64,000 bases of DNA from Candidatus Eisenbergiella merdavium. Lineage in GTDB: Bacteria > Bacillota > Clostridia > Lachnospirales > Lachnospiraceae. The position numbers and the translations under genes were made by a program. Below the pieces are notes generated by a model. The model saw only the letters and a program-made list of their open reading frames with translations. It ran no database searches and was not told the origin of the DNA. How positions within the stretch are numbered: the stretch's first letter is position 1; each line of letters opens with the position of its first letter. The DNA lies in the NCBI GenBank assembly GCA_019119595.1, contig DWWS01000066.1, positions 1-64,000 on the forward strand, in the 5' to 3' direction. Below are positions 11,652 to 38,179 of the stretch, piece after piece.

Positions 11652-12623
11652 ATGATCTACTATATCACCGGGGAAGCCGGCAGCAGAACTGTAGCGTTTA
11701 TCGGAATCTTACTGGCGTTTGCCGCCACCTGCCTGACCATGTATAAGGGAATGGATTTTCTCCCGAAGGACCATGGAAGGGATTTTGCTGTGGATGGGAA
11801 GAAATCGGCGGGAAAGCCGAGAGGAGCGGGCTTCCTTTTTGTCCTTGTATTCATCGCTGCGGCGCTTTTGTTTGCAAGGCCGGGCCGGGAAACGGTCATT
11901 TATCTGATCCTTGTGGGAGCCGCCATGCTGACGGGCTTTCTGGACGACTGCGCGAAGACCCCGTGGGGAGAATATAAAAAAGGAATCCTGGATCTTCTGA
12001 TCGCCGTGATGACGGCGGTGACCTTCCTGAATTTCAATTCCAGCGAGGTTACCTTCCTTCTGACAGGAAAAACGATGACGCTGCATCCCGTTCTTTTCGG
12101 TGTGCTCGCGGTGATCCTTGTATGGGTATCCATCAATGTGACCAACTGCTCCGACGGCGTGGACGGGCTTTCCGGAACGCTTACGATCATCACGCTGATG
12201 ACGGTTTTTCTGGTGGACACGCTTTCGGCAGGAGGACAGGCGGACGGATTTCCCTATCTGATCCTGCTGTTCTGCGTCTGTATTCTCGGATATCTGTGGT
12301 ATAACGCCACCCCAAGCCGCCTTATGATGGGGGATGCCGGCTCCCGGGCCATGGGCCTGTTCATCAGCATCGCCGTTCTGAAAACGGGAAGCCCCTTCCT
12401 TTATATTCCGGTGGCGCTGGTTCTGATCCTGGACGGCGGGCTTGGACTGGTTAAGGTATCTTTGCTCCGCTTCCTGAAGATCCGGATCCTGACGAAGGTG
12501 CGCACGCCTCTGCACGACCAGGCGAGGAAGGTATGGGAATGGTCCAACACACAGACCGTTTTCCGCTTCGCCATCATCCAGATCATGCTCTGCGCAGCGG
12601 TAATTTATATTGCAATGCCGTGA
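11652..12623 (+). CDS. mraY: MraY-like phospho-N-acetylmuramoyl-pentapeptide transferase
   Basis: 323 residues, about ten membrane helices. GFLDDCAKTPWGEYKKG holds the Asp pair of the active site, NVTNCSDGVDGLSG the third conserved region, and NATPSRLMMGDAGSRAMG the metal-binding MGDxGS motif. The enzyme family transfers a phospho-sugar from UDP-MurNAc-pentapeptide to undecaprenyl phosphate at the inner face of the membrane. The usual PLHHHFE motif is replaced by PLHDQARK, followed by the expected W-x-x-x-Q-x-V-F-R-F. It is also outside a dcw cluster. It may therefore be the lone MraY of the genome or a paralogue using another UDP-sugar. Confidence 0.78.
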   Translation: MIYYITGEAGSRTVAFIGILLAFAATCLTMYKGMDFLPKDHGRDFAVDGKKSAGKPRGAGFLFVLVFIAAALLFARPGRETVIYLILVGAAMLTGFLDDCAKTPWGEYKKGILDLLIAVMTAVTFLNFNSSEVTFLLTGKTMTLHPVLFGVLAVILVWVSINVTNCSDGVDGLSGTLTIITLMTVFLVDTLSAGGQADGFPYLILLFCVCILGYLWYNATPSRLMMGDAGSRAMGLFISIAVLKTGSPFLYIPVALVLILDGGLGLVKVSLLRFLKIRILTKVRTPLHDQARKVWEWSNTQTVFRFAIIQIMLCAAVIYIAMP

Positions 12624-16431: not shown

Positions 16432-16656
16432 ATGGTTAATATTGATTGCAGTAACTTGATCTGCGAAATGAAGAAGAAGGGAATTACCTGTCATGATCTT
16501 GCATTTCTGTTGGGTGAAGAAAATGAGGCAATCGTATCCAGGCTGCAGGGAACGTCAGAATGGATTTACGAAGAAGTGATTACCATCAGAGATACGCTGT
16601 TTCCCGAATATGAACTGGGCTATCTTTTTAAAGAAAAAAAGAGACAGGATGCGTGA
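16432..16656 (+). CDS. Small HTH-like protein at the head of the polysaccharide operon
   Basis: 74 residues from ATG at 16432 (GAGGTCAAA upstream); a TTG at 16408 is an alternative. The sequence NLICEMKKKGITCHDLAFLLGEENEAIVSRLQG resembles the first helices of a Cro-type fold (helix, turn, recognition helix), with a short C-terminal tail. It could be a co-regulator or antirepressor of the divergent XRE protein. Its stop overlaps the GTG start of the first glycosyltransferase, so the two are coupled. Confidence 0.6.
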   Translation: MVNIDCSNLICEMKKKGITCHDLAFLLGEENEAIVSRLQGTSEWIYEEVITIRDTLFPEYELGYLFKEKKRQDA

Positions 16657-17891
16657 ATACAAAAATGAAAAAAGCGTTGATAATCACCACGATCAGTGGT
16701 TTTGTGCCGCAGTTTGAAATGAATAACGTCTCTCTCCTGCAGGAAATGGGATACGAGGTGCATTATGCATCCAATTTTAACCGGCCCGTATATGATTTTG
16801 ACAAAGAATTATTTCAGCAATGGGGCATCATTACCCACCCGCTGTTCATCGAGAAATCCCCTGTACATGTTATAAAAAACTGCAGAGCACTCCGGCAGCT
16901 GAAAAATCTGCTTGAAAAGGAGCGGTTCGATCTGGTCCACTGCCACAATCCCATGGGCGGTGTGCTCGGGAGGCTGGCCGGAAGCCTGTTTTCCCCCGAG
17001 AGTGTGATCCTGTATACAGCGCATGGCTTTCATTTTTATAAAAAAGCCCCCTGGAGAAACTGGCTTCTGTTCTACCCGGCAGAGCGGGCGCTGGCCCGGC
17101 TGACGGACATCCTGATCACCATCAACGAAGAAGACTATGAAAGAGCCTGCCGTTTCCGGCTGAGAAACAAAGCTGCTGCCAAGGGGAGCGTATGGAAGAT
17201 CCCCGGCGTCGGTCTGGATGTAAGCCGTTTTCAGCCGGCGGAAGGGATACGGCAGGAACGCAAACGGGAGCTTGGATTTCCGTCGGACTGCTTCCTTTTG
17301 TTATCGGTGGGCGAGCTGAACCGGAACAAGAATCACCGGGCCGTTATCCGGGCTCTTTCCCGGATGGAGCAGCGGGATGTCTGCTATGGGATCTGTGGGA
17401 GAGGAAACAGAAAGAAGGCGCTGGAGACGCTGATCGCCAAAGAAGGACTCCAGGACAGGGTGAAGCTTTTGGGATATCGGAAGGATATCGAACGGGTACT
17501 CCCGGCGGCGGACTGCTTCCTGTTCCCGTCCAGAAGAGAAGGCTTTGGCATGGCAGCCGTAGAGGCGATGGCGGCAGGGCTTGCGCTCATCACCTCAGAC
17601 TGTCGCGGGACCAGGGAATATATGAAGGACGGCGTAACAGGCATTGTCTGTCGGAAAAACCGTCCGGAAAGCTATGCGGAAGCGGTTCAGAGGCTGCGGG
17701 GCGCGCCTGAGAAACGACGGGAAATGGGCTGCGCCAGCCGGGAAAGGGCGCTTCTGTTCAGCAGGACGGCCACAGAAAGCGTCATGAGGCGGGTCTATGA
17801 AGCGGCTTCCCGGCAGTGTGAACGGGTGAGGAAGCGGGAAACGGCGCCCATACATAGAGAGCCGGACACAGCCAAAAAAGCAAAGGCATAA
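16653..17891 (+). CDS. Family 4 (GT-B fold) glycosyltransferase
   Basis: 412 residues from the overlapping GTG, or 408 from ATG at 16665. ALIITTISGFVPQFEMNNVSLLQEMGYEVHYASNF is the GT4 N-domain; FDLVHCHNPMGGVLGRLAG and TAHGFHFYKKAPWRNW follow. In the C-domain, LLSVGELNRNKNHRAVIRAL and the E-x7-E motif (SRREGFGMAAVEAMAAGLALI) are the nucleotide-sugar site. It resembles EpsD- and CapM-like enzymes that add sugars to a lipid-linked acceptor at the inner membrane face. Donor and acceptor cannot be told. Confidence 0.88.
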   Translation: MNTKMKKALIITTISGFVPQFEMNNVSLLQEMGYEVHYASNFNRPVYDFDKELFQQWGIITHPLFIEKSPVHVIKNCRALRQLKNLLEKERFDLVHCHNPMGGVLGRLAGSLFSPESVILYTAHGFHFYKKAPWRNWLLFYPAERALARLTDILITINEEDYERACRFRLRNKAAAKGSVWKIPGVGLDVSRFQPAEGIRQERKRELGFPSDCFLLLSVGELNRNKNHRAVIRALSRMEQRDVCYGICGRGNRKKALETLIAKEGLQDRVKLLGYRKDIERVLPAADCFLFPSRREGFGMAAVEAMAAGLALITSDCRGTREYMKDGVTGIVCRKNRPESYAEAVQRLRGAPEKRREMGCASRERALLFSRTATESVMRRVYEAASRQCERVRKRETAPIHREPDTAKKAKA

Positions 17892-17959: not shown

Positions 17960-18865
17960 ATGTCAAACATACTGGTTACCGTGGTGATGGGCGTGTACAA
18001 CCAGCACAACAAAGAACAGCTGGAGGAGGCGGTCCGTTCCATTCTCGCGCAGACGATGAAGAGCTGGGAGCTGATCATCTGCGACGACGGCTCGGATTCG
18101 GAGGCGGCCCGGAACCTGAGAGATTATGAAAACAGGGATCCGCGCATCCGTGTGATCCGCCATTCCCAAAACAGGGGCCTTGCGGCCACGCTGAACACCT
18201 GCATCGCACAGGCAAGGGGGAAATATATCGCCCGCATGGACGCGGACGACATTTCCAGGCCCCAGCGGCTGGAACAGCAGTACCGGTTTCTGGAAACCCA
18301 TATCCAGTACGCCTTTGTAGGCTGCAACGCGGACCTGATTGACAAGGACGGCGTTTGGGGGATGCGCAGGATGCCGGAAAAGCCGGAAAGAAAGGACTTC
18401 CTTCCCTATTCTCCCTTCATCCACCCTTCCGTCATGGTGCGCAGGGAGGTGTATCTCATGAGCGGCGGCTATTATGTCTCAAGGGAGACCTGGAGGTGCG
18501 AGGATTATGAGCTGTTCATGCGCCTGTACGCGGAAGGGTATCAGGGCTACAACATGCAGGAACGGCTGTTCTGCTACCGGGAGGACAAGGCCAGCTATGA
18601 GCGCAGGAGATTCCGTTACCGCCTGGATGAGGCCCGTATCCGCCGCCGGAATTTTAAGAATCTCGGCATGGCCGGGCCGGTGGCCTGGTTCTATATTATC
18701 CGTCCCGTGGCCGCGGGGCTGCTCCCGATTTCGGTTTTGATGTACATAAAACAACGGCAGGTGAAGAAAGAGGTTGCTTCTGTTGAATCCTTCCATACGA
18801 CAAAACAAACTGAATCATTACCGCAGGCTGCTGAAACGGACGCCAGGGCTGCTGGAGGTCTCTGA
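17960..18865 (+). CDS. Family 2 (GT-A fold) glycosyltransferase
   Basis: 301 residues. VTVVMGVYNQHNKEQLEEAVRSILAQTMKSWELIICDDGSDSEAARNL is the nucleotide-binding half of a GT2 fold, ARMDADDISRPQRLEQQ carries the DxD metal site, and WRCEDYELFMRLYAEGY the ED catalytic region. The end (MAGPVAWFYIIRPVAAGLLPISVLMYI) is hydrophobic and may sit in or on the membrane. It overlaps the following gene by about 80 bases in another frame, showing tight operon packing. Confidence 0.88.
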   Translation: MSNILVTVVMGVYNQHNKEQLEEAVRSILAQTMKSWELIICDDGSDSEAARNLRDYENRDPRIRVIRHSQNRGLAATLNTCIAQARGKYIARMDADDISRPQRLEQQYRFLETHIQYAFVGCNADLIDKDGVWGMRRMPEKPERKDFLPYSPFIHPSVMVRREVYLMSGGYYVSRETWRCEDYELFMRLYAEGYQGYNMQERLFCYREDKASYERRRFRYRLDEARIRRRNFKNLGMAGPVAWFYIIRPVAAGLLPISVLMYIKQRQVKKEVASVESFHTTKQTESLPQAAETDARAAGGL

Positions 18866-20270
18866 GAGAGCCTATGAAAGGGCGCTTTCGGAAGAGGCTT
18901 CCGGTGTGACACAGGCACAGATCTGCGCCAGCATGTTCGTGCTGGGCCCGGTTCTCTTTGCCTTCGTCTCCTGGGTGCTGAAGCAGGCGCGGGAGGCGGG
19001 AAAGCGCAGGCTGTATTTCCTCTCGCGGGATGGCTGGCTGATGTACCTGATGGCGAGACAGCTATGCAGGACGCAGGCCGGTCTCCCGGAGGCCGGTTCC
19101 CGGGAGGCTGGTTCCCCGAAGGATGATTCTCCGGAGGGTGGCCCGGCGGAGTCCCCACCCCTGGAATGCCGGTATCTGTACGCCTCCCGTTACGCATGGA
19201 GGATACCGGAGCAGCATCTGATCGGAAAGCGGAGCCTGGAGCGGATCTGCCGGGGCGGTATGCATGTGACCTTTGCCGACATGATGAAAAGAGCCGGGCT
19301 GACCGGGGAGGAGGCGGAGCGGATCGCCGCTTTTGCGTGCCCCGGGCAGCGGACGGACGAGGTCCTTTCCTGGAGCGGGATCCAGCGCCTGAAGGGTCCC
19401 CTTTTCGGGTGCAGGGAGTTCTGGGAGCTTGCAGACGAACGCTCCCGCAGCCGCTATGGAGACACCTTGGGCTACCTTTCCCAGGAGGGACTGTTGGATG
19501 ACATCCCCTACGCGCTGGTGGACAGCGGCTGGATCGGCACCATGCAGGAAAGTCTTTCCCACCTTCTTGAAAGCGCCGGATACAGCCGGAGAGTGGAGGG
19601 CTATTACTTCGGCCTGTACAGCCTGCCGCAGACGGTGGAAGCAGGGGCGTTCCACAGCTGGTACTTTGAACCCGGCTCAGGGACAGGCCGCAAGGCGCAT
19701 TTTTCCAACTGCCTGTTTGAATGCATCTTCACGGCCCCCCATGGGATGACGATGGGCTATGAGCGGGCGGAGGGCAGGTGGGAGCCTGTGCTTGCCGGGA
19801 TGCATCCGGAAAACGAAGCGTGGGTGGAACGGCAGATGCGCCTGTTTGAGCTCTATGCCCAGGCCCTTTCGGAAAGCCTTTCAAAGGGGCGCGCCGGAAG
19901 CCTGGAGGAGGAAGCGGCCGCCCTGCGGGTCCGGGGGCTTCTGGGAAGCCTGATGTCCGCCCCGTCCCCGGAGGAAGGGGAGTGCTTTGGAAGCGTTTCT
20001 TTTTCCGATGACGTGACGGAGGAACGGATGCGACCGCTGGCGGCGCGCCTGACACAGCGGCAGCTTCTGGGACATCATCCTCTTCCCCGCCTTTATCTGA
20101 CGCTGCTTCCCGGGAAATGGAAGCTTCAGGACAGCGGCTGGATCGAAGGGAGCATCCGTCTGTACGGCGGATGCCTGTATGGCTGGCACAGGGCGGGAGC
20201 TCTTCTCTATAAATATGCCCTGTATGCGAGGATGCGGTATGGTTTCAGGAAAGGACGGAAGGCAGCTTAG
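18783..20270 (+). CDS. Polysaccharide-locus protein with COG5610-type C-terminal domain (no HAD domain)
   Basis: About 495 residues. No ATG is suitably placed; TTG at 18783 has AAGAGG nine bases upstream and overlaps the end of the GT2 gene. KRRLYFLSRDGWLMYLMARQL near residue 75 and YALVDSGWIGTMQESLSHLL near 245 match the same two motifs in the 697-residue protein encoded at 23138 (RILFLARDGDIL, VVDIGWAGSGAMALDV). In that protein the domain follows a HAD hydrolase domain; here the HAD part is missing. An insertion of five pentapeptide repeats (residues ~99-123) separates the two halves. Probably a cytoplasmic glycan-synthesis factor; function unknown. Confidence 0.72.
   Translation: MNPSIRQNKLNHYRRLLKRTPGLLEVSERAYERALSEEASGVTQAQICASMFVLGPVLFAFVSWVLKQAREAGKRRLYFLSRDGWLMYLMARQLCRTQAGLPEAGSREAGSPKDDSPEGGPAESPPLECRYLYASRYAWRIPEQHLIGKRSLERICRGGMHVTFADMMKRAGLTGEEAERIAAFACPGQRTDEVLSWSGIQRLKGPLFGCREFWELADERSRSRYGDTLGYLSQEGLLDDIPYALVDSGWIGTMQESLSHLLESAGYSRRVEGYYFGLYSLPQTVEAGAFHSWYFEPGSGTGRKAHFSNCLFECIFTAPHGMTMGYERAEGRWEPVLAGMHPENEAWVERQMRLFELYAQALSESLSKGRAGSLEEEAAALRVRGLLGSLMSAPSPEEGECFGSVSFSDDVTEERMRPLAARLTQRQLLGHHPLPRLYLTLLPGKWKLQDSGWIEGSIRLYGGCLYGWHRAGALLYKYALYARMRYGFRKGRKAA
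19077..19151 (+). repeat. Five 15-nt tandem units inside a coding region
   Basis: Units GCCGGTCTCCCGGAG, GCCGGTTCCCGGGAG, GCTGGTTCCCCGAAG, GATGATTCTCCGGAG, GGTGGCCCGGCGGAG encode AGLPE-AGSRE-AGSPK-DDSPE-GGPAE. Length changes would stay in frame. Confidence 0.85.
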
Positions 20271-20273
20271 GGA

Positions 20274-21047
20274 ATGAAGAGATATGAAGAACTGAAACAG
20301 TACGTCTTTGTGGTAAGACAGCTTGTGGCACGGGAGATAAAGAGGAAGTATTCCAGATCCTACCTTGGGATCCTATGGAGCGTGCTGAACCCGCTTTTGA
20401 ACATGGTGGTGCTCTCTTTTATCTTTACGAAGATGTTTTCCAGGAGCATTGAGAACTACCCCCTGTACCTGCTGACCGGACAGACCATCTGGCAGCTCTT
20501 TACCGGGGCGACCAACGCGGCCATGACAGTCATGGTGGATAACCGGGTGATGCTCACCAGGGTCAAGTTCCCCATGAGGATCTTCCCCATAGCGCGGGTA
20601 TACAGCGCGCTGGTCAATTACCTGTACACCTTCGTGGCCTACCTCGTGATGCTGCTGGTGTTCCGGATCCGTCCGGACATTACCATGCTGGCCGCGCCGG
20701 TCATCATCCTGTGCCTGACCCTGTTCTCCCTGGGGCTTGGATACCTGTTGGCCGTGGCCTATGTGTTCTTTGCGGATATCAAATATCTGTATTCCGTACT
20801 GCTGAGCCTGTGGATGTACTGCTCCGCCATTTTCTATCCGGTGGAACAGCTCCCGGAGGTCATCGGGAGGATCATCGAGGCCAATCCGGTATACAACTAC
20901 ATCGCCTGCATGAGGGAGACCATGCTGTACGCCTCCTGGCCCGCGCCGTCCCAGTGGCTGAGGATGTTCCTCTGGGCTGCCGTGATGTATGCGGCGGGAA
21001 GCCTGGCATTTTCCCGGAGCCAGAACCGGATCATGCAGACCGTATAA
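20274..21047 (+). CDS. ABC-2 type polysaccharide export permease
   Basis: 257 residues, six predicted membrane helices. VVRQLVAREIKRKYSRSYLGILWSVLNPLLNMVVLSFIF is the amphipathic entry helix and first TM of TagG/Wzm-type permeases (PF01061). YSALVNYLYTFVAYLVMLLVF and FYPVEQLPEVIGRIIEANPVYNYIACMRE complete the fold. It should form a homodimeric channel that moves a lipid-linked glycan across the membrane, powered by the ATPase encoded next. The start lies four bases after the preceding stop. Confidence 0.92.
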   Translation: MKRYEELKQYVFVVRQLVAREIKRKYSRSYLGILWSVLNPLLNMVVLSFIFTKMFSRSIENYPLYLLTGQTIWQLFTGATNAAMTVMVDNRVMLTRVKFPMRIFPIARVYSALVNYLYTFVAYLVMLLVFRIRPDITMLAAPVIILCLTLFSLGLGYLLAVAYVFFADIKYLYSVLLSLWMYCSAIFYPVEQLPEVIGRIIEANPVYNYIACMRETMLYASWPAPSQWLRMFLWAAVMYAAGSLAFSRSQNRIMQTV

Positions 21048-21102: not shown

Positions 21103-23112
21103 ATGAAAACAGGCAGTAGGAGAATCCAAAACTGCACATCGTTCCTGGCTTTTTTACTGGCGCTTTCCGGTCTGGCGGCCGGATGGTTCACGGTCGGGCT
21201 CAGCGTCCGTGCGGAGGATGCGTCCGTGGTTTACGGTTCGGAGGAATATACCCCGCAGGCGGAAGAGGAATTCAACATCGGCCTGTATATCCGCTGCGAC
21301 GCTCCGGATTTCGTCTATACTGTGGCAATGAGCTATGATCCTGCTCGAATGGAATACCTGGGCGGGGCGGACAGCGCGGAGAACGGCATGCTTCGGTTCG
21401 CGGGGGAGGCTTCCGGAGGGGAGCGCAGGTACATGCTCACCTTCCGGGCGCTGACGGAAGGGGCATGCGCCGTCAGCGTGACGGAGGCCGCGGTGATCAC
21501 CGACCCTTCGGCCGGAATTGTCGCGGAGGAAGGGGAGATGGGAGCCGGGATGGCGGAGGATCTGGCCGCGCAGACGGCACCGCCGTCCGTTGCCAGCATC
21601 ACGGCGCTGGGAACGGCGGCGGTTCGGATCAGTCCTCCCGTAGACTGCAGCCTTTCCGCCCTTTCCATTGAAGAGCTTCCCGATTTTGCCCTGGAGCCGG
21701 ATGTGTATGAATACGACCTTACCGTTTCACCGAATACACAAGAGCTTGGGCTGAGCGCTTCTGTCTCGGACGAAAGGGCCGCTGTGAGCATTTCGGACAC
21801 AGATCTGGAAACGGGGGAAAATACCATTACGGTTACGGTGAGAGGGGGAAAGGAATCCAGAGAGTACCTGCTGCATGTGACAAGACCGGAGGCGGAGAGA
21901 CAGGAAGAAGGGGTGGAAACGGGAGAGACGGTTGGAACGGAACCGGGAATTCTGCTTCCGGCGGAAGATACCCTGGATGCAGAGGGCGGTATGGAACAGA
22001 ATGCTTCCCTGCCGACGAATGAGGAAGCCCCGGATGCTGTGGCCGTCATGGCACAGCCCGCAGAGGAAAACGGCGGGAGCGGGCTGTTTTCCCTGCTGCA
22101 TTTCCGGTATCTGCTCCTGGGCGGGGGCATCCTCCTGCTGGCAGCGGCCGGAGGGCTGGCCTTCCTTCTATGGAAGCGGAAACAAAGAGACAGATACTTT
22201 GACGACGAAGACGATGAAATGGAGTGGTTGAATCTGAACGAGGATGAAGCATGGATACAGTGGCTTTCCGAGGTGGAGGAAGCGGAAGAAGAAATGACAG
22301 AAATTGAGACCAGGCAGCCAATACAGAAGGCTGCACAGAAACCCGCAGCCGCGGCACCCGAAGCCGGAGCACAGCAGCCTCCCGTCATCCGTATCGAGGA
22401 CGTGAGCATGCGCTTTAAGATCAGCGAGGTCAACGCAGGGAGTCTGAAGGAATACCTGCTCGTCACCCTGAAGCGGCAGAACAGATATCATGAGCTGGAA
22501 GCGCTCCGGCACATCACCTTTGACATCCATAAAGGGGAGGTGATCGGCATCATCGGCACCAACGGCTCCGGAAAAAGCACCCTTTTAAAGTTGATCGCCG
22601 GCGTGCTGAAGCCCTCCGAAGGAAACATCGAGGTAGATCGGAAAAAGGTTCAGCTCCTCACCCTGGGAACGGGCTTTGATGCGGAGCTGACAGCACGGGA
22701 AAATGTCTATCTGAACGGGGCCATCATCGGCTACAGCAGGGAATTTATCGATGAGAACTTTGACAGAATCGTAAAATTCGCCGAGCTGGACGGCTTCATG
22801 GATGAAAAGATCAAGAACTTTTCATCCGGTATGATGTCCCGCCTGGGCTTTGCCATCGCTACCGTGGGCGAAACGGCGGAGATCCTGATCCTGGACGAGG
22901 TGTTGAGCGTGGGAGACATGTTCTTCCGCAAAAAGAGCGAGCAGAGGATCAAGGAGATGATCCACAGCGGCTCCACGGTGCTGATCGTATCCCATTCCAC
23001 GGATACCATCATCAAAAACTGCACCAAAGCGGTCTGGATCGAAAAAGGGGTCCTGAAGGAGATCGGCGAGCCGAAAAAGGTCTGCGCGGCCTATCGGAAG
23101 CTTGCCGGGTAG
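21103..23112 (+). CDS. ABC transporter ATPase fused to an extracellular cohesin-like/cadherin-like module
   Basis: 669 residues in one uninterrupted frame, start set by GGAGGTAACT. Residues 1-37 are a signal sequence (FLAFLLALSGLAAGWFTVGLSVRA). Residues ~45-150 resemble a cohesin fold (FNIGLYIRCDAPDFVYTVAM, SYDPARMEYLGG). Residues ~183-258 match a cadherin-like beta-sandwich (PF12733: LEPDVYEYDLTVSPNTQEL). An acidic linker leads to a membrane helix at 336-357 (YLLLGGGILLLAAAGGLAFLLW), a very acidic cytoplasmic linker, and from ~427 a TagH/Wzt-type ATPase with Walker A GTNGSGKST (~485-493), signature FSSGM (~573) and Walker B EILILDEV (~593-600). B. subtilis TagH has the reverse order (ATPase first). 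It should energise the permease upstream. Confidence 0.9.
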   Translation: MKTGSRRIQNCTSFLAFLLALSGLAAGWFTVGLSVRAEDASVVYGSEEYTPQAEEEFNIGLYIRCDAPDFVYTVAMSYDPARMEYLGGADSAENGMLRFAGEASGGERRYMLTFRALTEGACAVSVTEAAVITDPSAGIVAEEGEMGAGMAEDLAAQTAPPSVASITALGTAAVRISPPVDCSLSALSIEELPDFALEPDVYEYDLTVSPNTQELGLSASVSDERAAVSISDTDLETGENTITVTVRGGKESREYLLHVTRPEAERQEEGVETGETVGTEPGILLPAEDTLDAEGGMEQNASLPTNEEAPDAVAVMAQPAEENGGSGLFSLLHFRYLLLGGGILLLAAAGGLAFLLWKRKQRDRYFDDEDDEMEWLNLNEDEAWIQWLSEVEEAEEEMTEIETRQPIQKAAQKPAAAAPEAGAQQPPVIRIEDVSMRFKISEVNAGSLKEYLLVTLKRQNRYHELEALRHITFDIHKGEVIGIIGTNGSGKSTLLKLIAGVLKPSEGNIEVDRKKVQLLTLGTGFDAELTARENVYLNGAIIGYSREFIDENFDRIVKFAELDGFMDEKIKNFSSGMMSRLGFAIATVGETAEILILDEVLSVGDMFFRKKSEQRIKEMIHSGSTVLIVSHSTDTIIKNCTKAVWIEKGVLKEIGEPKKVCAAYRKLAG

Positions 23113-23137
23113 GCCTGTGGCAGAAAGGGAATCCAAC

Positions 23138-25231
23138 ATGGGGCTGACGACGCTCAGAATGAACGCATACGGCACGCTGGTCAACCGGGTGCCGGAGATC
23201 AGAGAAAAATATCATAAGATGCGCGACGATCAGACCTCCTCCTGGCAGCGTCCGCTGGCCTGGTTCTATCTGGGGGTGCTGAACCTGGGATGGCTCCTGG
23301 GGTGGCGGCCGGAAGGGGCGGCCGCCGGAAGGGGCATGGGACGGGATACGCGGACAGCCAAACGGCTTTCTGCCAAAGGCGGCGTTTATGGCGGCGGCCC
23401 TGCGGAATCCGTCGGGAGCGTAAGAGAGACGCCGGAGCGTCTGGCGCAGAGGCTTTCCGCCTATGACGTGATTTCCTTCGACGTTTTTGATACACTGCTG
23501 TTTCGTCCTTTTGCCAGCCCGGAGGATCTGTTCTACATCGTGGGGCAGAAGCTGGATTATCTGGATTTCAGACGCATCCGCATGGAGGCGGAGCGCTGCG
23601 CCAGACAGGAGTGCCTGGAGAAAAAAGGACACCGGGAAGCGTCCCTTTCGGATATCTACGACTGGCTGGAACGGGAGGCGGGCATCCCGAAGGAGGAGGG
23701 CATGCGCGTCGAGCAGGAGACAGAGCTTGAGCTGTGCTTTGCAAACCCGTACATGCTTCAGGTCTGTGACCGCATGAAACAGAGCGGAAAACGGATCATC
23801 GCCCTGTCGGACATGTACCTGCCTTCAGAGTCTATCCGGCGCATGCTGGAAAAATGCGGCTTCGGGCAGATCCGGGACTGTCATGTTTCCTGCGAATACG
23901 GCTGCTCCAAAAGCGACGGCAGCCTGTATGGGAAGCTTATGCAGAAGCTTGGGACGGGACGGTACGTCCATGTGGGAGACAACCGGATATCCGACGGGGA
24001 GAACGCGCGGAAGGCGGGATGGGACAGCATTTCCTGTACCAACGTCAACGCGGCGGGAAAGCCCTTCCGTGCCATGGAGATGTCCCGGATCACGGGCAGC
24101 GTTTACCGGGGGCTGGTGAACGCCCGCCTGCATAACGGCCTGCAGAGCTATGACCGGGACTATGAATGCGGGTTTGTTTACGGCGGCATCTTCGCCCTGG
24201 GCTACTGCCAGTTCATCCACGATTATGCGCAGGGGCACGGGATCGAAAGGATCCTGTTTCTGGCAAGGGACGGGGATATCCTCAGTCAGGTCTACCGCCT
24301 GCTCTATCCAAAGGAAGAGGAAGCGGGCAGGATCCGCTACGTCCTCTGGTCCAGGCTTGCGGCGGTAAAGCTTGCGGCCCCCTACTATAAATACGACTAT
24401 TTCAGGAGATTCCTGTTCCATAAGGTGAACCAGGGCTTCACCCTGGAGCAGATCTTTGCGGCCATGGAGCTTAACGACCTGCTGGACGGGCTGACCGGGG
24501 CTGCAGGGCCGGGAGGAAGCACAGGAGAGAGGCTGATGCATGCCGGGCTTTCTCTGAAAAAGGAAGATACCCTGACAGACAGGAACGTGCATACGGTGAA
24601 GGATTATCTGAACGGACGCTGGGAACAGGTGCTCGCCCATTATGAGGATCAGCTGGAGGAAGGCAGACGCTATTATGAAAAGGCGCTGGACGGCGCTTCC
24701 AGGGCCGCCGTTGTGGACATCGGCTGGGCCGGGAGCGGCGCGATGGCCCTGGATGTGCTGGTCAACCGGGTCTGGGGCCTGGACTGTGAGATCATTGGCC
24801 TCCTGGCCGGGACCAACACCAGGCACAACGCCGAGCCGGACATGAGCGAGGCCCAGCTTGCCGGCGGAAAGCTGATCAGCTACCTGTTCTCCCAGTCCCA
24901 TAACCGGGATCTGTGGGAACAGCACGACCCGGCAAAGGGAGACAACGTGGCGATGGAAAGACTGCTGTCCTCCCCGCTGCCCGGATTCCGGGGCTTCTTT
25001 GGCCCGGACTGGGAGGCGCGGGCCCTGACTCCCCGAACCGACAGGGAAGGCAAACAGGCGGAACGGATCCAGCAGGGGATCCTGGATTTTGTCCGGCTGT
25101 ACCAGGAAAGCGGCATGAGCCGGTATGTCCCTTCCATCAGCGGCCGGGATGCCGCAGCGCCCGCTTATCTGTGGATGGAAGCGCGGCGCGGGCAGACGGC
25201 GGGGGAGGATATCCAGTGCGTGCTGGCCTGA
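23138..25231 (+). CDS. HAD-superfamily hydrolase with COG5610-type glycan-locus domain
   Basis: 697 residues from ATG at 23138 (AAAGGGA upstream). HAD motifs are intact: FDVFDTLLFR (Asp at ~115 and ~118), ALSDMYLPSE (~222-231), a conserved KSDGSLYGKL lysine region, and VGDNRISDGENARKAG (~282). From ~345 a second domain begins (YGGIFALGYCQFIHDYAQ, RILFLARDGDIL) and ends with VVDIGWAGSGAMALDV. Proteins of this layout occur in capsule loci, sometimes joined to glycosyltransferases; the HAD half probably acts on a phosphorylated sugar or nucleotide sugar. It shares the second domain with the protein at 18783, and the two flank the ABC transporter genes. Confidence 0.82.
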   Translation: MGLTTLRMNAYGTLVNRVPEIREKYHKMRDDQTSSWQRPLAWFYLGVLNLGWLLGWRPEGAAAGRGMGRDTRTAKRLSAKGGVYGGGPAESVGSVRETPERLAQRLSAYDVISFDVFDTLLFRPFASPEDLFYIVGQKLDYLDFRRIRMEAERCARQECLEKKGHREASLSDIYDWLEREAGIPKEEGMRVEQETELELCFANPYMLQVCDRMKQSGKRIIALSDMYLPSESIRRMLEKCGFGQIRDCHVSCEYGCSKSDGSLYGKLMQKLGTGRYVHVGDNRISDGENARKAGWDSISCTNVNAAGKPFRAMEMSRITGSVYRGLVNARLHNGLQSYDRDYECGFVYGGIFALGYCQFIHDYAQGHGIERILFLARDGDILSQVYRLLYPKEEEAGRIRYVLWSRLAAVKLAAPYYKYDYFRRFLFHKVNQGFTLEQIFAAMELNDLLDGLTGAAGPGGSTGERLMHAGLSLKKEDTLTDRNVHTVKDYLNGRWEQVLAHYEDQLEEGRRYYEKALDGASRAAVVDIGWAGSGAMALDVLVNRVWGLDCEIIGLLAGTNTRHNAEPDMSEAQLAGGKLISYLFSQSHNRDLWEQHDPAKGDNVAMERLLSSPLPGFRGFFGPDWEARALTPRTDREGKQAERIQQGILDFVRLYQESGMSRYVPSISGRDAAAPAYLWMEARRGQTAGEDIQCVLA

Positions 25232-25309
25232 AGCAGGCCGAAATTGGTCCGAGTGAAAACGATCATAACAGAAACAATGCTGATAGAAACAAAGAGGTGC
25301 TTTGAACCA

Positions 25310-26227
25310 ATGATTAAGAACAGAAACCGATCCACCCATGGAAAAAGGTATGGCCTTATGACCGCCGCTGCGCTCCTTGCCCTCCTGCTTACGGCCTGCG
25401 GGAACGCAAAAGGAGCTCCGGCCCAGACCGGACAGGAAACCTCTTCAACCGCGGAAGGCCAGGTCCAGACAGCGAAAGATGAGGCAGCGGATGCTACGCA
25501 GGAGTCCGCCTCCCTTTCGGCATCCGCTCCGGAAGCAGGGGCACGGGAGACGGAAGGAACGCTCCTAACGGATGAAACAATTGCAGAAGAAGCCGGGGAG
25601 GAAGGGACAGAGACAACAGGGAAAATGGAAAACAGCCTGGAGGCCTGGCTGGATGAGGACGGAACCCTGAACCTTGTCGGATTACAGGAGATCAACGAGG
25701 ATATCTACGCCTGGCTTGATATCCCGGGGACCCGGATCAGCTTTCCCCTCCTGCAGTCTCTGGAGGATGAATATTTTTACCTGAGCCATAATGAATCAAA
25801 GGAGGCCGACGACGGCGGCTGCATTTATACGGAATACTTCAACCGCAGGGATTTTTCCGATCCCAATACGGTGATCTACGGAAGAAATGCGGACGGCAGG
25901 TTCGCCCTGCTCCATCAGTACCAGGACAGGGACTTTTTCGACGCCAACCGCACCGTAAATATCTATCTTGAGGATCGTACGCTGCGTTATGAGATCTTCG
26001 CCGCCTACAATTACGACGACAGGCATCTGATCAAGATATACGATTTCTGGGATAAGGACATTTTTTCCTCCTATCTGGAGACGGTCTTTTCCCAGAGGGC
26101 CATGGACGCCTATGTGGACGATTCCGTTCAGGTAACGGCGGACGACAGGATCATCACCCTCTCCACCGGAGTGACCGGGCAGGACGACAGACGCTATCTG
26201 GTGCAGGCCGTCCAGGTCTCCGGCTGA
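25310..26227 (+). CDS. Sortase-B-fold lipoprotein lacking catalytic His and Cys (pseudo-sortase)
   Basis: 305 residues from MIKNRNRSTHG (GAGGTG upstream). The signal sequence ends in LTAC, a lipobox with Cys30. A Ser/Thr/Glu-rich linker (~31-115) leads to a class B sortase domain: NEDIYAWLDIPGTRISFPLLQ, GGCIYTEYFNRRDFSDPNTVIYG, then NIYLEDRTLRYEIFAAY. In active SrtB the motif is YGHN and the nucleophile lies in LSTC. Here these read YGRN (Arg192) and LSTG (Gly287), while the Arg of the DRRYLVQA strand is kept. So both essential residues are gone and transpeptidation is not expected. It may bind substrate or act as a scaffold for the glycan machinery. Confidence 0.85.
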   Translation: MIKNRNRSTHGKRYGLMTAAALLALLLTACGNAKGAPAQTGQETSSTAEGQVQTAKDEAADATQESASLSASAPEAGARETEGTLLTDETIAEEAGEEGTETTGKMENSLEAWLDEDGTLNLVGLQEINEDIYAWLDIPGTRISFPLLQSLEDEYFYLSHNESKEADDGGCIYTEYFNRRDFSDPNTVIYGRNADGRFALLHQYQDRDFFDANRTVNIYLEDRTLRYEIFAAYNYDDRHLIKIYDFWDKDIFSSYLETVFSQRAMDAYVDDSVQVTADDRIITLSTGVTGQDDRRYLVQAVQVSG

Positions 26228-26297: not shown

Positions 26298-27404
26298 ATG
26301 GAAGCAAAACGAAAACGAAGAAAAAAGAGAATGAGAAAAAGGCTCCTGATCGGCCTTGGCGTCTTCATCAGCGTATTGTTTGCGGCGGGGCTTTCCCTTA
26401 TCGCCGCCTGGCTGGTCCTGGACTATCAGGGCAGACAGCAGCTTGCCGCCAGACAGGACGCAGTCCCGGAGGGGATGCGCCAGGCCTTCGCCATGGACGC
26501 GGGCGGGGAAGAGCCCCTTCAGCCAGGGGAGCTCCGATATCAGGGAAAGACCTATACCTATAAAAACGACGTCCTGACCTTCCTGTTCATGGGAATCGAC
26601 AAGACAGGAGAAACGGAGGCCTCTAAGGACCTCTACGCGGGTGGACAGGCCGACGCTCTGTTCCTCGCGGCCCTGGACCCCGGGGAGAAAAGGATCAGCC
26701 TGATCGGTATCAACCGGGACACCATGACGGAGATCTCCGTCTATGACAGGAACGGCCTGTACGCCGGGACGCAGACCGCGCAGATCGCCCTGGCCCACGC
26801 CTACGGGGACGGCCTGGAGAAAAGCTGTGAGGATACCGTGGAGGCGGTCAGCCAGCTTTTTTACGGCCTTCCCATCCACGGCTACTGCGCCCTGAACATG
26901 GAGGCGGTGGCCATCCTGAACGACGCGGTGGGCGGCGTGGACGTCACCATCCCCGAATCCGCCGCCGGAGCGGACATGGCGATCGACGGGGCGCGCTACA
27001 GGACCGGATGGGAAACCGGACAGCAGGTCCGCCTGATGGGAAACGACGCTTATACCTTTATCCGATACAGAGATACCACAGTGGCCCAGAGCGCTGAGGC
27101 CAGACTGGAAAGACAAAAGACCTACCTGCAGGCCTTCGCGGGACAGGCGGTGGACGCCGTGAAGGGCGACCTGACCCTTCCGCTCACCCTCTATACGGCC
27201 ATATCTCCGTACATGGTGACGGACATCACCGCCCGGGAGGCGGTGCATATCGCCTCAGAGGCGGTCTCCTACCGCTTCAGCGCGGAGAGCCTGTATTCCA
27301 TGACGGGAGAGGTACGGATGGGAGAGGTGTTCGAGGAATTTTATCCGGACGAAACCGCCCTCTATGAGCTCATCCTGCAGGTATTTTATGAGGAAGCGCC
27401 CTGA
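26298..27404 (+). CDS. LytR-CpsA-Psr (LCP) family glycopolymer ligase
   Basis: 368 residues. A basic N-terminus and one membrane helix (LLIGLGVFISVLFAAGLSLIAAWLVL) place the rest outside. The LCP domain follows: FLFMGIDKTGE, ADALFLAALDPGEKRISLIGINRDTMTEI (catalytic Arg region), YCALNMEAVAILNDAVGGVDVTIPE and YTFIRYRDTTVAQSAEARLERQKTYLQAF. LCP enzymes transfer lipid-linked glycopolymers to MurNAc of peptidoglycan, so this is the likely enzyme that anchors the glycan made here. It lies 70 bases after the pseudo-sortase gene. Confidence 0.9.
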   Translation: MEAKRKRRKKRMRKRLLIGLGVFISVLFAAGLSLIAAWLVLDYQGRQQLAARQDAVPEGMRQAFAMDAGGEEPLQPGELRYQGKTYTYKNDVLTFLFMGIDKTGETEASKDLYAGGQADALFLAALDPGEKRISLIGINRDTMTEISVYDRNGLYAGTQTAQIALAHAYGDGLEKSCEDTVEAVSQLFYGLPIHGYCALNMEAVAILNDAVGGVDVTIPESAAGADMAIDGARYRTGWETGQQVRLMGNDAYTFIRYRDTTVAQSAEARLERQKTYLQAFAGQAVDAVKGDLTLPLTLYTAISPYMVTDITAREAVHIASEAVSYRFSAESLYSMTGEVRMGEVFEEFYPDETALYELILQVFYEEAP

Positions 27405-28440: not shown

Positions 28441-29919
28441 TTGATACTACAGAATTGTGCCGCGCCGGATGAGGTGTGCGGCAGCCAGGAGATCTACTAC
28501 AGGAGCCCGTCCGGAATCCGGACAGACCGGGAGGGCGTCATACTGGAAGCGGGACAGGAGCTTGCTTCCGATACCTATATGAACACGCTGGACCTGGGAG
28601 CGTGGAAGAAATATACGACGGTTGATAAAATTTATTTCCTCTGCGAGTTGGAAGGAAGAGGGGTTATTACCCTGATCCACCAGGAGGGAAACGAAAAAAA
28701 GAGAATAAAAGAGGTCAGCTACGGGAGGGATCCCGAAAGTGAGGCCATTCAGATAGAGTTGCCGGAAGGACTGGGCGGCAGGATTTATTTTGAGCTGAAA
28801 GCGGAGACCAGGACCGTGCTGAAGCGGGCCGGGTATGTTTCCGACAGTCAGCCCGACAACAGGATCAGCCTTTCCCTTGTGATCTGTACCTACAGACGAA
28901 GGGAACATGTGGAAAAAAATCTGGAAAAGCTCCGGAGGAGCTCTTTTTTCCAAACCATGACGCAGAAGAACAGCTTTGTGGTGCGGGTCGTTGACAATGC
29001 AAAGGAGCTTTCCGGCATATACGGAGAGCATGTCAAAATATACGCGAATGAAAACACGGGCGGTTCCGGCGGCTTTTCCAGAGGGATGGAAGAGTCGGTA
29101 AAGGAAAAAGACCAGTATCAGACCACACACGTGATCCTGATGGATGACGATGTGGAGCTTCAGACAGAAAGCCTGAGCCGTCTGTATGCGCTGCTGTCCT
29201 ATATGAAGCCGGAATACCGGACGGAACCGGTGGCGGGACGGATGTTCCGCCTTGACAGGCGGGAGGTCCAGTATACGGCGGCTGAGGTCTGGAACGGCGG
29301 GGAGATCCGCCATATCGGTTTCAATCTGGATATGACGCAGCCGGAGAACCTGGTCTCCATGAACGACAACGGCGGAGCGGAATACGGGGGCTGGTGGTTT
29401 GCCTGCTATCCCATGGGATTTGTGGAAAGGAACAGGCCGCTCCCGTTTTTCCTGCACTGCGACGATGTGGAATACGGGCTGCGGCATGGCGGTACGCCGA
29501 TCGTGCTGAACGGGATCCAGGTGTGGCATGAGACCTATGAATACAGGCAGTCGCCGGTGATCGCTTATTATGATACCAGGAATGCCTTGATTGTGAATGC
29601 GCTATATTGCGATGATTGGGAAAAAAGCAGGGTTCTTAAATTTTGGAAGGATGAATTAGATAAATCACATGACTGTGAGACTATGGAATTTATCTGTGCA
29701 CGGCTCCTGGGGATTCTTCATTATTGTTCAAATGCAAAAAACTTTATGGAGAAAAGTCCTATGAACATGAAGCTTCGCGTGAAAAGGATAAAAAAATGTA
29801 ATAACGCCAAAATCATAATTGTTGCGGGAAAAATTATATTTAAAATTTGGGATAAGAAGTTTTACGGTATTGTTCGTCAATATAGGAGATCGTATAAAAA
29901 ATTTTTATACTCGAAATAA
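28441..29919 (+). CDS. GlfT2-like galactofuranosyltransferase (GT2)
   Basis: 492 residues from TTG at 28441 (GGGGGAG upstream). Residues ~1-140 form a beta-rich N-terminal domain as in GlfT2. The GT-A domain starts at SLSLVICTYRRREHVEKNLEKL; ILMDDDVELQTESLSRLYALL holds the DDD metal site, and FFLHCDDVEYGLR the catalytic Asp-Asp. GlfT2-type enzymes polymerise galactofuranose from UDP-Galf, and the mutase gene at 37064 would supply it. From about position 29580 the DNA becomes clearly AT-richer within the reading frame, so the C-terminal ~110 codons look as if they came from a different source. Confidence 0.82.
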   Translation: MILQNCAAPDEVCGSQEIYYRSPSGIRTDREGVILEAGQELASDTYMNTLDLGAWKKYTTVDKIYFLCELEGRGVITLIHQEGNEKKRIKEVSYGRDPESEAIQIELPEGLGGRIYFELKAETRTVLKRAGYVSDSQPDNRISLSLVICTYRRREHVEKNLEKLRRSSFFQTMTQKNSFVVRVVDNAKELSGIYGEHVKIYANENTGGSGGFSRGMEESVKEKDQYQTTHVILMDDDVELQTESLSRLYALLSYMKPEYRTEPVAGRMFRLDRREVQYTAAEVWNGGEIRHIGFNLDMTQPENLVSMNDNGGAEYGGWWFACYPMGFVERNRPLPFFLHCDDVEYGLRHGGTPIVLNGIQVWHETYEYRQSPVIAYYDTRNALIVNALYCDDWEKSRVLKFWKDELDKSHDCETMEFICARLLGILHYCSNAKNFMEKSPMNMKLRVKRIKKCNNAKIIIVAGKIIFKIWDKKFYGIVRQYRRSYKKFLYSK

Positions 29920-36231: not shown

Positions 36232-37026
36232 ATGAATGTATATTTAAAACCTAAAAATATAGTGATAATTGGCGGCGCAAGCGGCATCGGTTTTGCAGCC
36301 GCCGATAGATTGCTTGAAGCAGGCGCTTCGAATATAATTCTTGCATCCAGAAATCCGCAAAAACTGAAAGAAGCACAATCCTCCCTTAAAATGAAAGCTG
36401 GAAAAGGGCAGGGAATCAGTACCTATATATTTGATATTCAAAATGTATAGAGTCACAATTCCATGATTGATGACGTACAAAAGCTGATAGGGGCGGATCA
36501 TCCTCTGGATGGCCTTGTAATTTCAAGCGGTATCAATTTTGACGGCTCCAACTGGAAGGGCTTCAATATTTCTGAAACAGACTGGGACAATGTGATGAAC
36601 GTAAATCTCAAAGGGGCATTTTTCCTTATTCGTAATTTTGCAAACTATCTTCATGCCAATAACAGAAAAGGGAATATATGCGTCGTGTCGTCTATCAGTG
36701 CACACAGAGATTTATTGTCGGTATATCAGGTTACAAAAAATGCTTTATCCAGGATCGTACACACATATGGAAAATATTTGTGTGAAAGAGGAGTCGTATT
36801 GAATTGTGTGGAGCCAGGAGTTGTCAACACTGATATGATGCCTTTTCTGAAGGATTATACAGATGGTATACGTCCTGGAAAGCCCTGGAACGATTCATCC
36901 ATAAAAAGAATCATTCGCCCGGAGGAGATAGCAGAAATTATATATCTGTTGATGTCAAATTTAGGAGAAGTTCTGTCGGGAAGCTGTATTTTGTGCGGTG
37001 GAGGAACAAAAGCTCTTTTCCCATAA
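36232..37026 (+). pseudogene. Short-chain dehydrogenase/reductase interrupted by an in-frame TAG
   Basis: Codons 1-72 encode the Rossmann start (VIIGGASGIGFAAADRLLEAG). A TAG at 36448-36450 stops the frame. The same frame continues (SHNSMIDDVQKL) to 37026 with GLVISSGINFDG, NVNLKGAFFLI, the catalytic Ser in VVSSISAH, YQVTK, and a classical end (VLSGSCILCGGG). Without the stop it would be a normal SDR of ~264 residues, so a single nonsense change (for example from CAG) or a sequencing error is likely. ATG at 36463 could start a fragment, but it would lack the NAD(P) motif. It follows the MenD-like gene by six bases, suggesting joint function. Confidence 0.85.
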
Positions 37027-37063
37027 AATACAAGAATTGCATACATTTTGTAAAGGAGAAGAC

Positions 37064-38179
37064 ATGAAATACGATTACCTCATCATCGGAGCCGGCCTTT
37101 TTGGTTCGGTCTTCGCCCGCGAGGCGCACCAGCGCGGCAAGTCGGTCCTCGTCATAGACCGCCGTCCCCATATCGCCGGGAACATTTATACAGAAAATGT
37201 AGAAGGCATCCAGGTGCACCGCTACGGAGCCCATATTTTCCATACCAGCAATAAAAATGTCTGGGACTATGTCCAGCAATTTGCCGAGTTCAACCGCTAC
37301 ACCAACGCGCCCGTCGCCCGTTACCGGGACGAGCTGTACAACATGCCCTTCAACATGAATACCTTTCACCAGATGTGGGGCGTCGTTACGCCACAGGAGG
37401 CGAAGGCAAAGATCGAGGAGCAGATCCGGGAGGCCGGGATCAAAGAACCGCAGAATCTGGAGGAGCAGGCCCTCAGCCTGGTGGGCCGCGATATCTATGA
37501 AAAGCTGGTAAAGGGCTACACGGAGAAACAATGGGGAAGGCGTGCGACGCAGCTGCCCGCCTTCATCATCCGCAGGCTTCCCGTCCGCCTGACCTACGAC
37601 AACAATTATTTCAATGACAAATATCAGGGAATCCCCGTGGGCGGCTACACCAAAATGGTGGAGGCCATGCTGGAGGGCGTAGAGGTACGCCTGAATACGG
37701 ACTTTTTTGACGACCGGAAGAGCTTTGAGCAGATGGCGGAAAAAATTGTTTTCACCGGAAACATAGACCGGTACTTTAATTTCTGCGAAGGGGCCTTGGA
37801 ATATCGCAGTCTTCGTTTTGAGACGGAAACGCTGGGTATGGAAAATTATCAGGGAAACGCGGTGGTGAATTATACGGAATATGAAATTCCTTATACCCGG
37901 ATCATCGAGCACAAGCATTTTGAATTTGGCTGCCAGGGCGGCCCGGCGTCTGCCAAAACGGTCATCACCAGAGAATATCCGGCCGGATGGAAAATGGGAG
38001 ACGAACCCTATTATCCGATCAACGATGAGAAAAACAACGAGCTGTACGCCAGATACGCCCATCTGGCGGAGGGCTGCCCGAACGTGATCTTTGGAGGCCG
38101 GCTGGGGAAATACCGCTACTATGACATGCATCAGGTCATTGAAGAAGCGCTTGCCTGTGTCAGAGCCGAACTGGGGTAA
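37064..38179 (+). CDS. glf: UDP-galactopyranose mutase
   Basis: 371 residues from MKYDYLIIGAGLFGSVFAREA (AAGGAGAAGAC upstream), an FAD-binding GxGxxG start. RRPHIAGNIYTENVEGIQVHRYGAHIFHTSNKNVWDYV (in parts), YTEKQWGRRATQLP, IPVGGYTKMVEAML, and FGGRLGKYRYYDMHQVI are diagnostic. It interconverts UDP-Galp and UDP-Galf, supplying the donor for the GlfT2-like enzyme in the same locus. Base composition returns to GC-rich exactly here, so the gene belongs to the backbone while its neighbours upstream are imported. A terminator follows at 38288. Confidence 0.95.
   Translation: MKYDYLIIGAGLFGSVFAREAHQRGKSVLVIDRRPHIAGNIYTENVEGIQVHRYGAHIFHTSNKNVWDYVQQFAEFNRYTNAPVARYRDELYNMPFNMNTFHQMWGVVTPQEAKAKIEEQIREAGIKEPQNLEEQALSLVGRDIYEKLVKGYTEKQWGRRATQLPAFIIRRLPVRLTYDNNYFNDKYQGIPVGGYTKMVEAMLEGVEVRLNTDFFDDRKSFEQMAEKIVFTGNIDRYFNFCEGALEYRSLRFETETLGMENYQGNAVVNYTEYEIPYTRIIEHKHFEFGCQGGPASAKTVITREYPAGWKMGDEPYYPINDEKNNELYARYAHLAEGCPNVIFGGRLGKYRYYDMHQVIEEALACVRAELG

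Follow-up and report, generated by a model that had tools for sequence, protein, structure and literature searches.

In the type V transporter TagGH of Bacillus subtilis, the ATPase subunit carries a C-terminal SH3b-like domain outside the cell according to PMC11466899, where this subunit is called TagG; it is named TagH here. An extracellular part on an exporter ATPase is thus not without precedent, and TagGH resembles the system described below in having an ATPase with a helix and an outside domain, a partner permease and a role in wall-polymer export, but its outside domain is C-terminal and SH3b-like, whereas the one reported here is N-terminal, led by a signal peptide and cohesin/cadherin-like. 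An extra non-cytoplasmic part also goes with a glycan exporter in the capsule system KpsMT-KpsE, as described in PMC11041684. The Wzm-Wzt O-antigen exporters offer the nearest solved ATPase folds (7k2t, 8dne, 6m96) and belong to the same permease class as the present system, but the C-terminal cytosolic carbohydrate-binding domain of Wzt is absent here, where hardly any residues follow the ATPase. We take KpsE, for its part, to be a separate protein with a fold different from that of the cohesin arm. The galactan exporter Wzm/Wzt is the third-best NCBIfam model for the ATPase (NF050108) and the best for the permease (NF050109), and genes for a mutase and a galactofuranosyltransferase-like enzyme likewise lie within the window; however, both scores fall below the cut-offs (154.6 against 400 and 67.7 against 380, respectively), and the 244-position ATPase model leaves no room for an ectodomain. 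The non-cellulosomal cohesin of Archaeoglobus fulgidus (2xdh, rank 16 in Foldseek) has the same fold as the arm, and we know of no transporter fusion for it.

The window is the whole stretch of DNA that was analysed, 64,000 nucleotides of Candidatus Eisenbergiella merdavium (contig DWWS01000066.1), and its relevant features are collected in Table 1. A single open frame at 21103-23112 on the forward strand, with ATG at 21103, stop codon at 23110-23112 and the sequence GGAGGT four bases 5' of the ATG, encodes a protein of 669 amino acids. The earlier note had described one 669-codon frame with a signal sequence, a membrane helix and a complete ABC ATPase, which is borne out by the translation, Pfam, hydropathy and the structural model. 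A signal peptide followed by a single helix leaves the N-terminal part outside and the ATPase inside, and the WKRKQRDR stretch right after the helix fits the positive-inside rule; by these established topology rules, the cohesin and cadherin-like part is placed outside the cell and the ATPase inside.

Table 1. Features of the exporter protein and of its neighbourhood in the window.
Feature	Position	Strand	Basis
MraY/WecA-like lipid-sugar transferase	11652-12623		PF00953
GT4-type glycosyltransferase	16653-17891	+	Pfam; homologue in 65/80 loci
GT2-type glycosyltransferase	17960-18865	+	Pfam; homologue in 69/80 loci
Conserved function-unassigned protein upstream of permease, start uncertain	18774..20270	+	Homologue in 71/80 loci
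ABC-2 permease, Wzm/TagG type, partner subunit	20274..21047	+	PF01061 E 1.9e-18
Signal peptide, residues 1-37, end VRA	21103..21213	+	Translation, model helix 8-30, cleavage site by eye
Cohesin-fold domain (predicted), residues 38-178, flexible insert ~133-162	21214..21636	+	AlphaFold, Foldseek, Pfam Cohesin in relatives
Cadherin-like beta-sandwich PF12733, residues 184-262	21652..21888	+	Pfam, AlphaFold
Predicted-disordered outside stretch, residues 263-329	21889..22089	+	pLDDT <50 at 267-285 and 287-329
Transmembrane helix, residues ~337-358, then WKRKQRDR	22111..22176	+	Hydropathy, model helix 330-366
Charged cytoplasmic linker, residues 359-425	22177..22377	+	AlphaFold, linker survey
Wzt/TagH-type ABC ATPase, residues 426-669, and stop	22378..23112	+	Pfam, NCBIfam, structural relatives
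HAD-like protein	23102..25231	+	TIGR01549 E 2.4e-7
Sortase-like protein without expected catalytic His, Cys	25244..26227	+	Pfam score below gathering cut-off
LytR-CpsA-Psr (LCP) family protein	26298..27404	+	PF03816 E 4.1e-19; homologue in 31/80 loci
Galactofuranosyltransferase-like enzyme, GlfT2 N-terminal domain	28441..29919	+	PF17994 E 4.3e-9
UDP-galactopyranose mutase	36998..38179	+	PF03275 E 1e-84

The AlphaFold model of the whole chain was built from a 49-sequence alignment comprising the query, the 47 loci with the fusion and L047, which is cut at its 5' end. Its ten-residue pLDDT means are 91-97 at residues 41-130 and 161-260 and 46-72 between residues 130 and 161, with values below 50 at 267-285, 287-329, 364-378 and 405-422; it contains a helix at 330-366 and a C-terminal ABC fold, and a pTM of no more than 0.41 for the full chain is what domains hanging on loose linkers would give. 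Modelled alone with 52 sequences, the ectodomain reaches a mean pLDDT of 93 and a pTM of 0.79. Structure prediction of this part, named beforehand as the test of the proposal that residues 38-330 form two beta-sandwich domains, returned such domains rather than none; both are predicted confidently, but the proposed span is slightly too long, as the fold ends near residue 262.

A Foldseek search with the ectodomain places cohesins or scaffoldins (4fl4, 4dh2, 6kgf) in its top six rows, at E 5e-6 to 1.2e-5. These alignments cover only part of the structures (TM-score by target no higher than 0.64 among the cohesin matches listed, rmsd 12-14 Å for the 4fl4 rows), and numerous other beta-sandwich proteins come next with comparable E values. 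A PDB sequence search with the ectodomain gave nothing credible (best E 0.12), and Pfam Cohesin (PF00963) has no match in the 669-residue protein at E 0.1 and none anywhere in its own genome, although it matches 8 of the 49 aligned proteins at E 0.01. The PF12733 match (residues 184-261, E 4.4e-6), at 27.5 bits, clears the cut-off of 24.2; this domain is matched in 19 of the 49 proteins and is missing from some relatives, such as L027, L031 and L037 in the alignment. The ectodomain is thus predicted to have a cohesin fold with a sequence remote from Pfam Cohesin, and the domain types named at the outset, cohesin-like and cadherin-like, agree with the Foldseek ranking and the PF12733 score. Since cohesins head the Foldseek list, several of them in complex with dockerins, the arm might dock wall enzymes through cohesin-dockerin pairing as in a cellulosome. 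Such docking is very improbable here, since a search of the 97.75% complete source genome with Dockerin_1 (PF00404, the sole dockerin model used) found nothing at E 0.001, and the domain lies far from Pfam Cohesin in sequence.

The C-terminal part contains ABC_tran at residues 468-600 (E 3.7e-23), and its NCBIfam match spans residues 429-666 of 669. The positions that we take to be the Walker A, signature, Walker B and H-loop motifs are invariant or nearly so in the 49 aligned sequences. Its nearest solved relatives are the Wzt, TagH and TarH ATPases. With a complete domain and an adjacent ABC-2 permease, it is an ATPase subunit of a Wzt/TagH-type (type V) ABC exporter, scoring below the curated cut-offs of the TagH equivalog models (PRK13545, 185.4 against 538; PRK13546, 168.7 against 320). 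The exporter context assumed in the earlier note is supported by the adjacent PF01061 permease and the glycan locus, and so is the reversed order relative to TagH, as the exposed module is N-terminal and the ATPase match stops three residues before the chain end. Of the other ABC matches in the same genome, the four closest (L002-L005) are 37-43% identical and were used as outgroup.

The surrounding genes are those of a glycan locus, where PF00953 is presumably of MraY/WecA type, the LCP protein is in our assumption the probable glycan-to-wall ligase, and further glycosyltransferases are matched downstream by Pfam. The exported glycan may contain galactofuranose, as the mutase and GlfT2-like genes suggest. 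A homologue of the permease lies in the fetched DNA of 75 of the 80 loci analysed. The protein encoded just upstream of it has no Pfam or NCBIfam match at E 0.1; its FLSRDG motif resembles FLARDG of the downstream HAD-like protein (E 0.021 over 44 residues), and in L074 its homologue shares one frame with the permease. Homologues of the sortase-like protein were found in 26 of the 80 loci. At the presumed positions of the catalytic His and Cys, the query, L045, L046, L048, L049 and L050 have Arg and Gly; these five loci are the members of the query's clade that have the gene, and the other 21 of the 26 keep His and Cys; the gene at 25244-26227 encodes a conserved pseudo-sortase. A 932-residue frame at 33427-36225 on the forward strand joins a polysaccharide pyruvyl transferase domain and the N-terminal domain of a thiamine-pyrophosphate enzyme, and homologues of at least part of it occur in 12 of the 80 loci.

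For the distribution of the fusion, the best 80 of 542 confirmed loci from a contig scan were analysed, a set that therefore leans towards query-like relatives, and the ectodomain was detected with profiles built from seven homologues. Within these best 80, the ectodomain lies in frame on the ATPase in 47 loci, of which 46 have it there alone and one has it on both subunits; three loci carry it solely on the permease, and 30, five of them cut or split, carry it on neither subunit. In L066 and L089, a cohesin frame directly precedes the ATPase frame with a frame change or stop between, scored as separate pieces, while the ATPase frames of L047, L087 and L093 are truncated by the contig end and were scored among the 30. 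The suspicion that the fusion is a frameshift or missed stop joining two genes was rejected, because the same in-frame fusion recurs in 47 of 80 loci, of which nine come from records with a strain in the title (L071, L072, L073, L077, L084, L085, L088, L102 and L120). Going by their record titles, 65 of all 80 loci belong to Lachnospiraceae, as do 42 of the 47 with the fusion, and the remaining fused loci are L069 (Eubacteriaceae) and L101 (Muribaculaceae), both metagenome-assembled, and three without a family; the closest matches to the query locus among the best 80 of 542 are assemblies of Eisenbergiella, which is itself a Lachnospiraceae genus. A less biased sample of 299 genomes spread evenly over the family contains 18 genomes with this ATPase subfamily, as delimited by a score above 400 bits (our own cut, below which there is a gap down to 358), and six of them, including the source genome, have the ectodomain on the ATPase and one (G054) on the permease. 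Some of the 80 loci are assemblies also met in the genome search (e.g. L010, L045), and G054 and L057 may be one assembly, as their ATPases are identical. In a phylum sample of 398 genomes searched at E 1e-105, the 14 genomes that match besides the source genome do so over the ATPase part only, in open frames of 244-292 residues.

A tree of 114 ATPase rows was computed by a quick method with SH-aLRT support only, and it has several long branches and an unsure root. In it, 98 of the 114 rows form one clade (support 100, stem 0.96) that holds all 53 fused rows. The best tree requires 25 changes of the fused state, no fewer than 11 of which well-supported branches make unavoidable; the number falls to 21 if the two split loci are scored as fused and the cut loci dropped. 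We read the tree as an early gain followed by many losses, while repeated gains may be an alternative history compatible with it.

The arm is also found on the other subunit. In L057, L065 and L104, a cohesin domain stands at the N-terminus of the ABC-2 permease, in the order cohesin, second outside domain, helix and permease, and the ATPase lacks it; in L056, both ATPase and permease carry the cohesin ectodomain, and in L096 the second outside domain stands alone on the permease. The record titles label all five as metagenome assemblies. By the topology rules, both kinds of fusion place the arm outside, ahead of a helix and a subunit starting in the cytosol. The presence of the arm on the permease in four loci (L056, L057, L065 and L104) implies that it belongs to the exporter as a whole, and the strongest clue to its role, as judged from sequence, is that it could apparently do its job from either subunit. 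The second outside domain of the five permeases has a conserved WDYK-like stretch and precedes the helix; a similar stretch was seen by eye at the N-terminus of the L087 ATPase.

These arrangements bear on the suggestion in the earlier note that the outer module passes a signal to the ATPase. Outside domain and ATPase do share one chain in 47 of 80 loci, as suits a sensor in which outside binding alters ATPase activity, but the domain is permease-borne in four loci, many relatives have the ATPase without an ectodomain, and a single helix makes a poor mechanical route when the linker behind it varies from 24 to 201 residues (median 63 in 47 proteins) and is modelled as partly disordered. A sensor pushing on the ATPase would be expected to have a fixed, ordered connection, and none is seen; signalling of this kind is therefore not favoured, and we regard it as quite unlikely. 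An outside tether is preferred to a sensor for the same reasons, namely a domain found on either subunit and variable, partly disordered linkers. The many relatives without an ectodomain further indicate that the arm is unnecessary for export as such.

The arm might alternatively be a dispensable passenger, kept mainly as a membrane anchor of the ATPase, and a helix in front without a cohesin domain is indeed found in the ATPases of L049, L067, L091, L095, L096, L098 and L117. However, 47 of 80 loci retain the ectodomain on the ATPase and some others have it on the permease, and comparison of the query with L045, L046 and L048 puts dN/dS at 0.10-0.25 in the folded ectodomain and at 0.04-0.08 in the ATPase, with synonymous change near saturation in the outside part against L046 (dS 2.5). 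By these estimates, the folded ectodomain is under purifying selection in all three pairs computed, and the passenger explanation is decidedly unlikely. Median identity across loci is 33% for the cohesin region, 68% for the ATPase, 52% for the permease, 35% for the protein upstream of the permease and 36% for the sortase-like protein. Fast divergence of the ectodomain was considered as a sign of substrate contact and dropped, because the upstream and sortase-like proteins change about as fast.

Stand-alone proteins of the same cohesin family (L170-L176) were also encountered, with a cohesin frame in seven of the eight regions inspected; ClpC-like and RadA-like frames lie near all seven and a GntR-like frame in five (names by eye). 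As their gene context is a different one, the module is not specific to export. In six of the seven regions, the cohesin protein adjoins a large secreted-looking frame, four of which start SH3-like by eye, and the outside domain of the B. subtilis TagGH ATPase has some SH3b homology, SH3b being described as wall-polymer-binding in PMC11466899. Both observations would suit an arm that anchors the exporter to the wall or envelope, binding peptidoglycan or a surface protein and positioning the exporter while leaving the exported chain untouched. We consider such an anchor unlikely, as Pfam finds no wall-binding family in the ectodomain and PF12733 is found in only 19 of the 49 aligned proteins.

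The association of the arm with wall-attachment genes was assessed at two levels. Over all 80 loci, LCP homologues accompany 23 of 47 ATPase-fused loci against 8 of 33 others (p 0.036) and sortase-like homologues 20 of 47 against 6 of 33 (p 0.029), where the 33 others include three permease-only, two split and three cut loci. When only the 48 loci flanked by 6 kb or more on each side are taken, and split and permease loci are scored as having the ectodomain, the values are 17 of 29 with ectodomain against 4 of 19 without for LCP (p 0.017) and 16 of 29 against 3 of 19 for the sortase-like protein (p 0.008). Seven independent pairs on the tree mostly show no difference and give no support for an association with either gene, so that these figures carry little weight once shared ancestry is removed.

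Taken together, the 669-residue protein is best explained as the ATPase subunit of an exporter of the Wzm/Wzt or TagGH kind that carries a lipid-linked cell-wall glycan, equipped with an extra N-terminal arm. The exporter class, its substrate class and a stoichiometry of 2+2 follow established knowledge of such transporters, and two ATPases per exporter would bring two arms near the channel exit. There the arm may serve as a flexible outside tether holding the emerging polymer or a ligation partner near the exit, the leading candidate for the receiver or partner being the LCP protein of the same locus, to which the chain would be handed for attachment to the wall. Binding of the glycan or a wall component, or tethering, as the earlier note had envisaged, remains a plausible proposal; that the arm acts outside specifically as a tether or hand-over arm is held tentatively, at slightly less than an even chance. 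More doubtful is the extension that a lineage of gut Lachnospiraceae evolved exporters with two to four such arms per complex, borne by the ATPase, the permease or both, which grip the chain as it emerges and pass it to the ligase; export and attachment would then be physically coupled in a single machine.

In the literature searched, which lay mostly outside subscription papers and included PMC11466899, PMC7078476 and PMC11971408, this architecture was not found, and the N-terminal position of the outside domain, its cohesin fold and its occurrence on ATPase or permease are apparently new, being not described there. The system seems to amount to a natural domain swap, with the same module on the ATPase, the permease, both or neither. 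To our knowledge, the passage of a polymer from its ABC exporter to the wall ligase is poorly understood, and these natural variants could test the coupling of export and attachment in common, little-studied gut bacteria. The layout is common to dozens of such related bacteria, a few of which have the arm on the channel protein of the exporter rather than on the ATPase, and this suggests that the arm acts on the exported chain or on its attachment to the wall.
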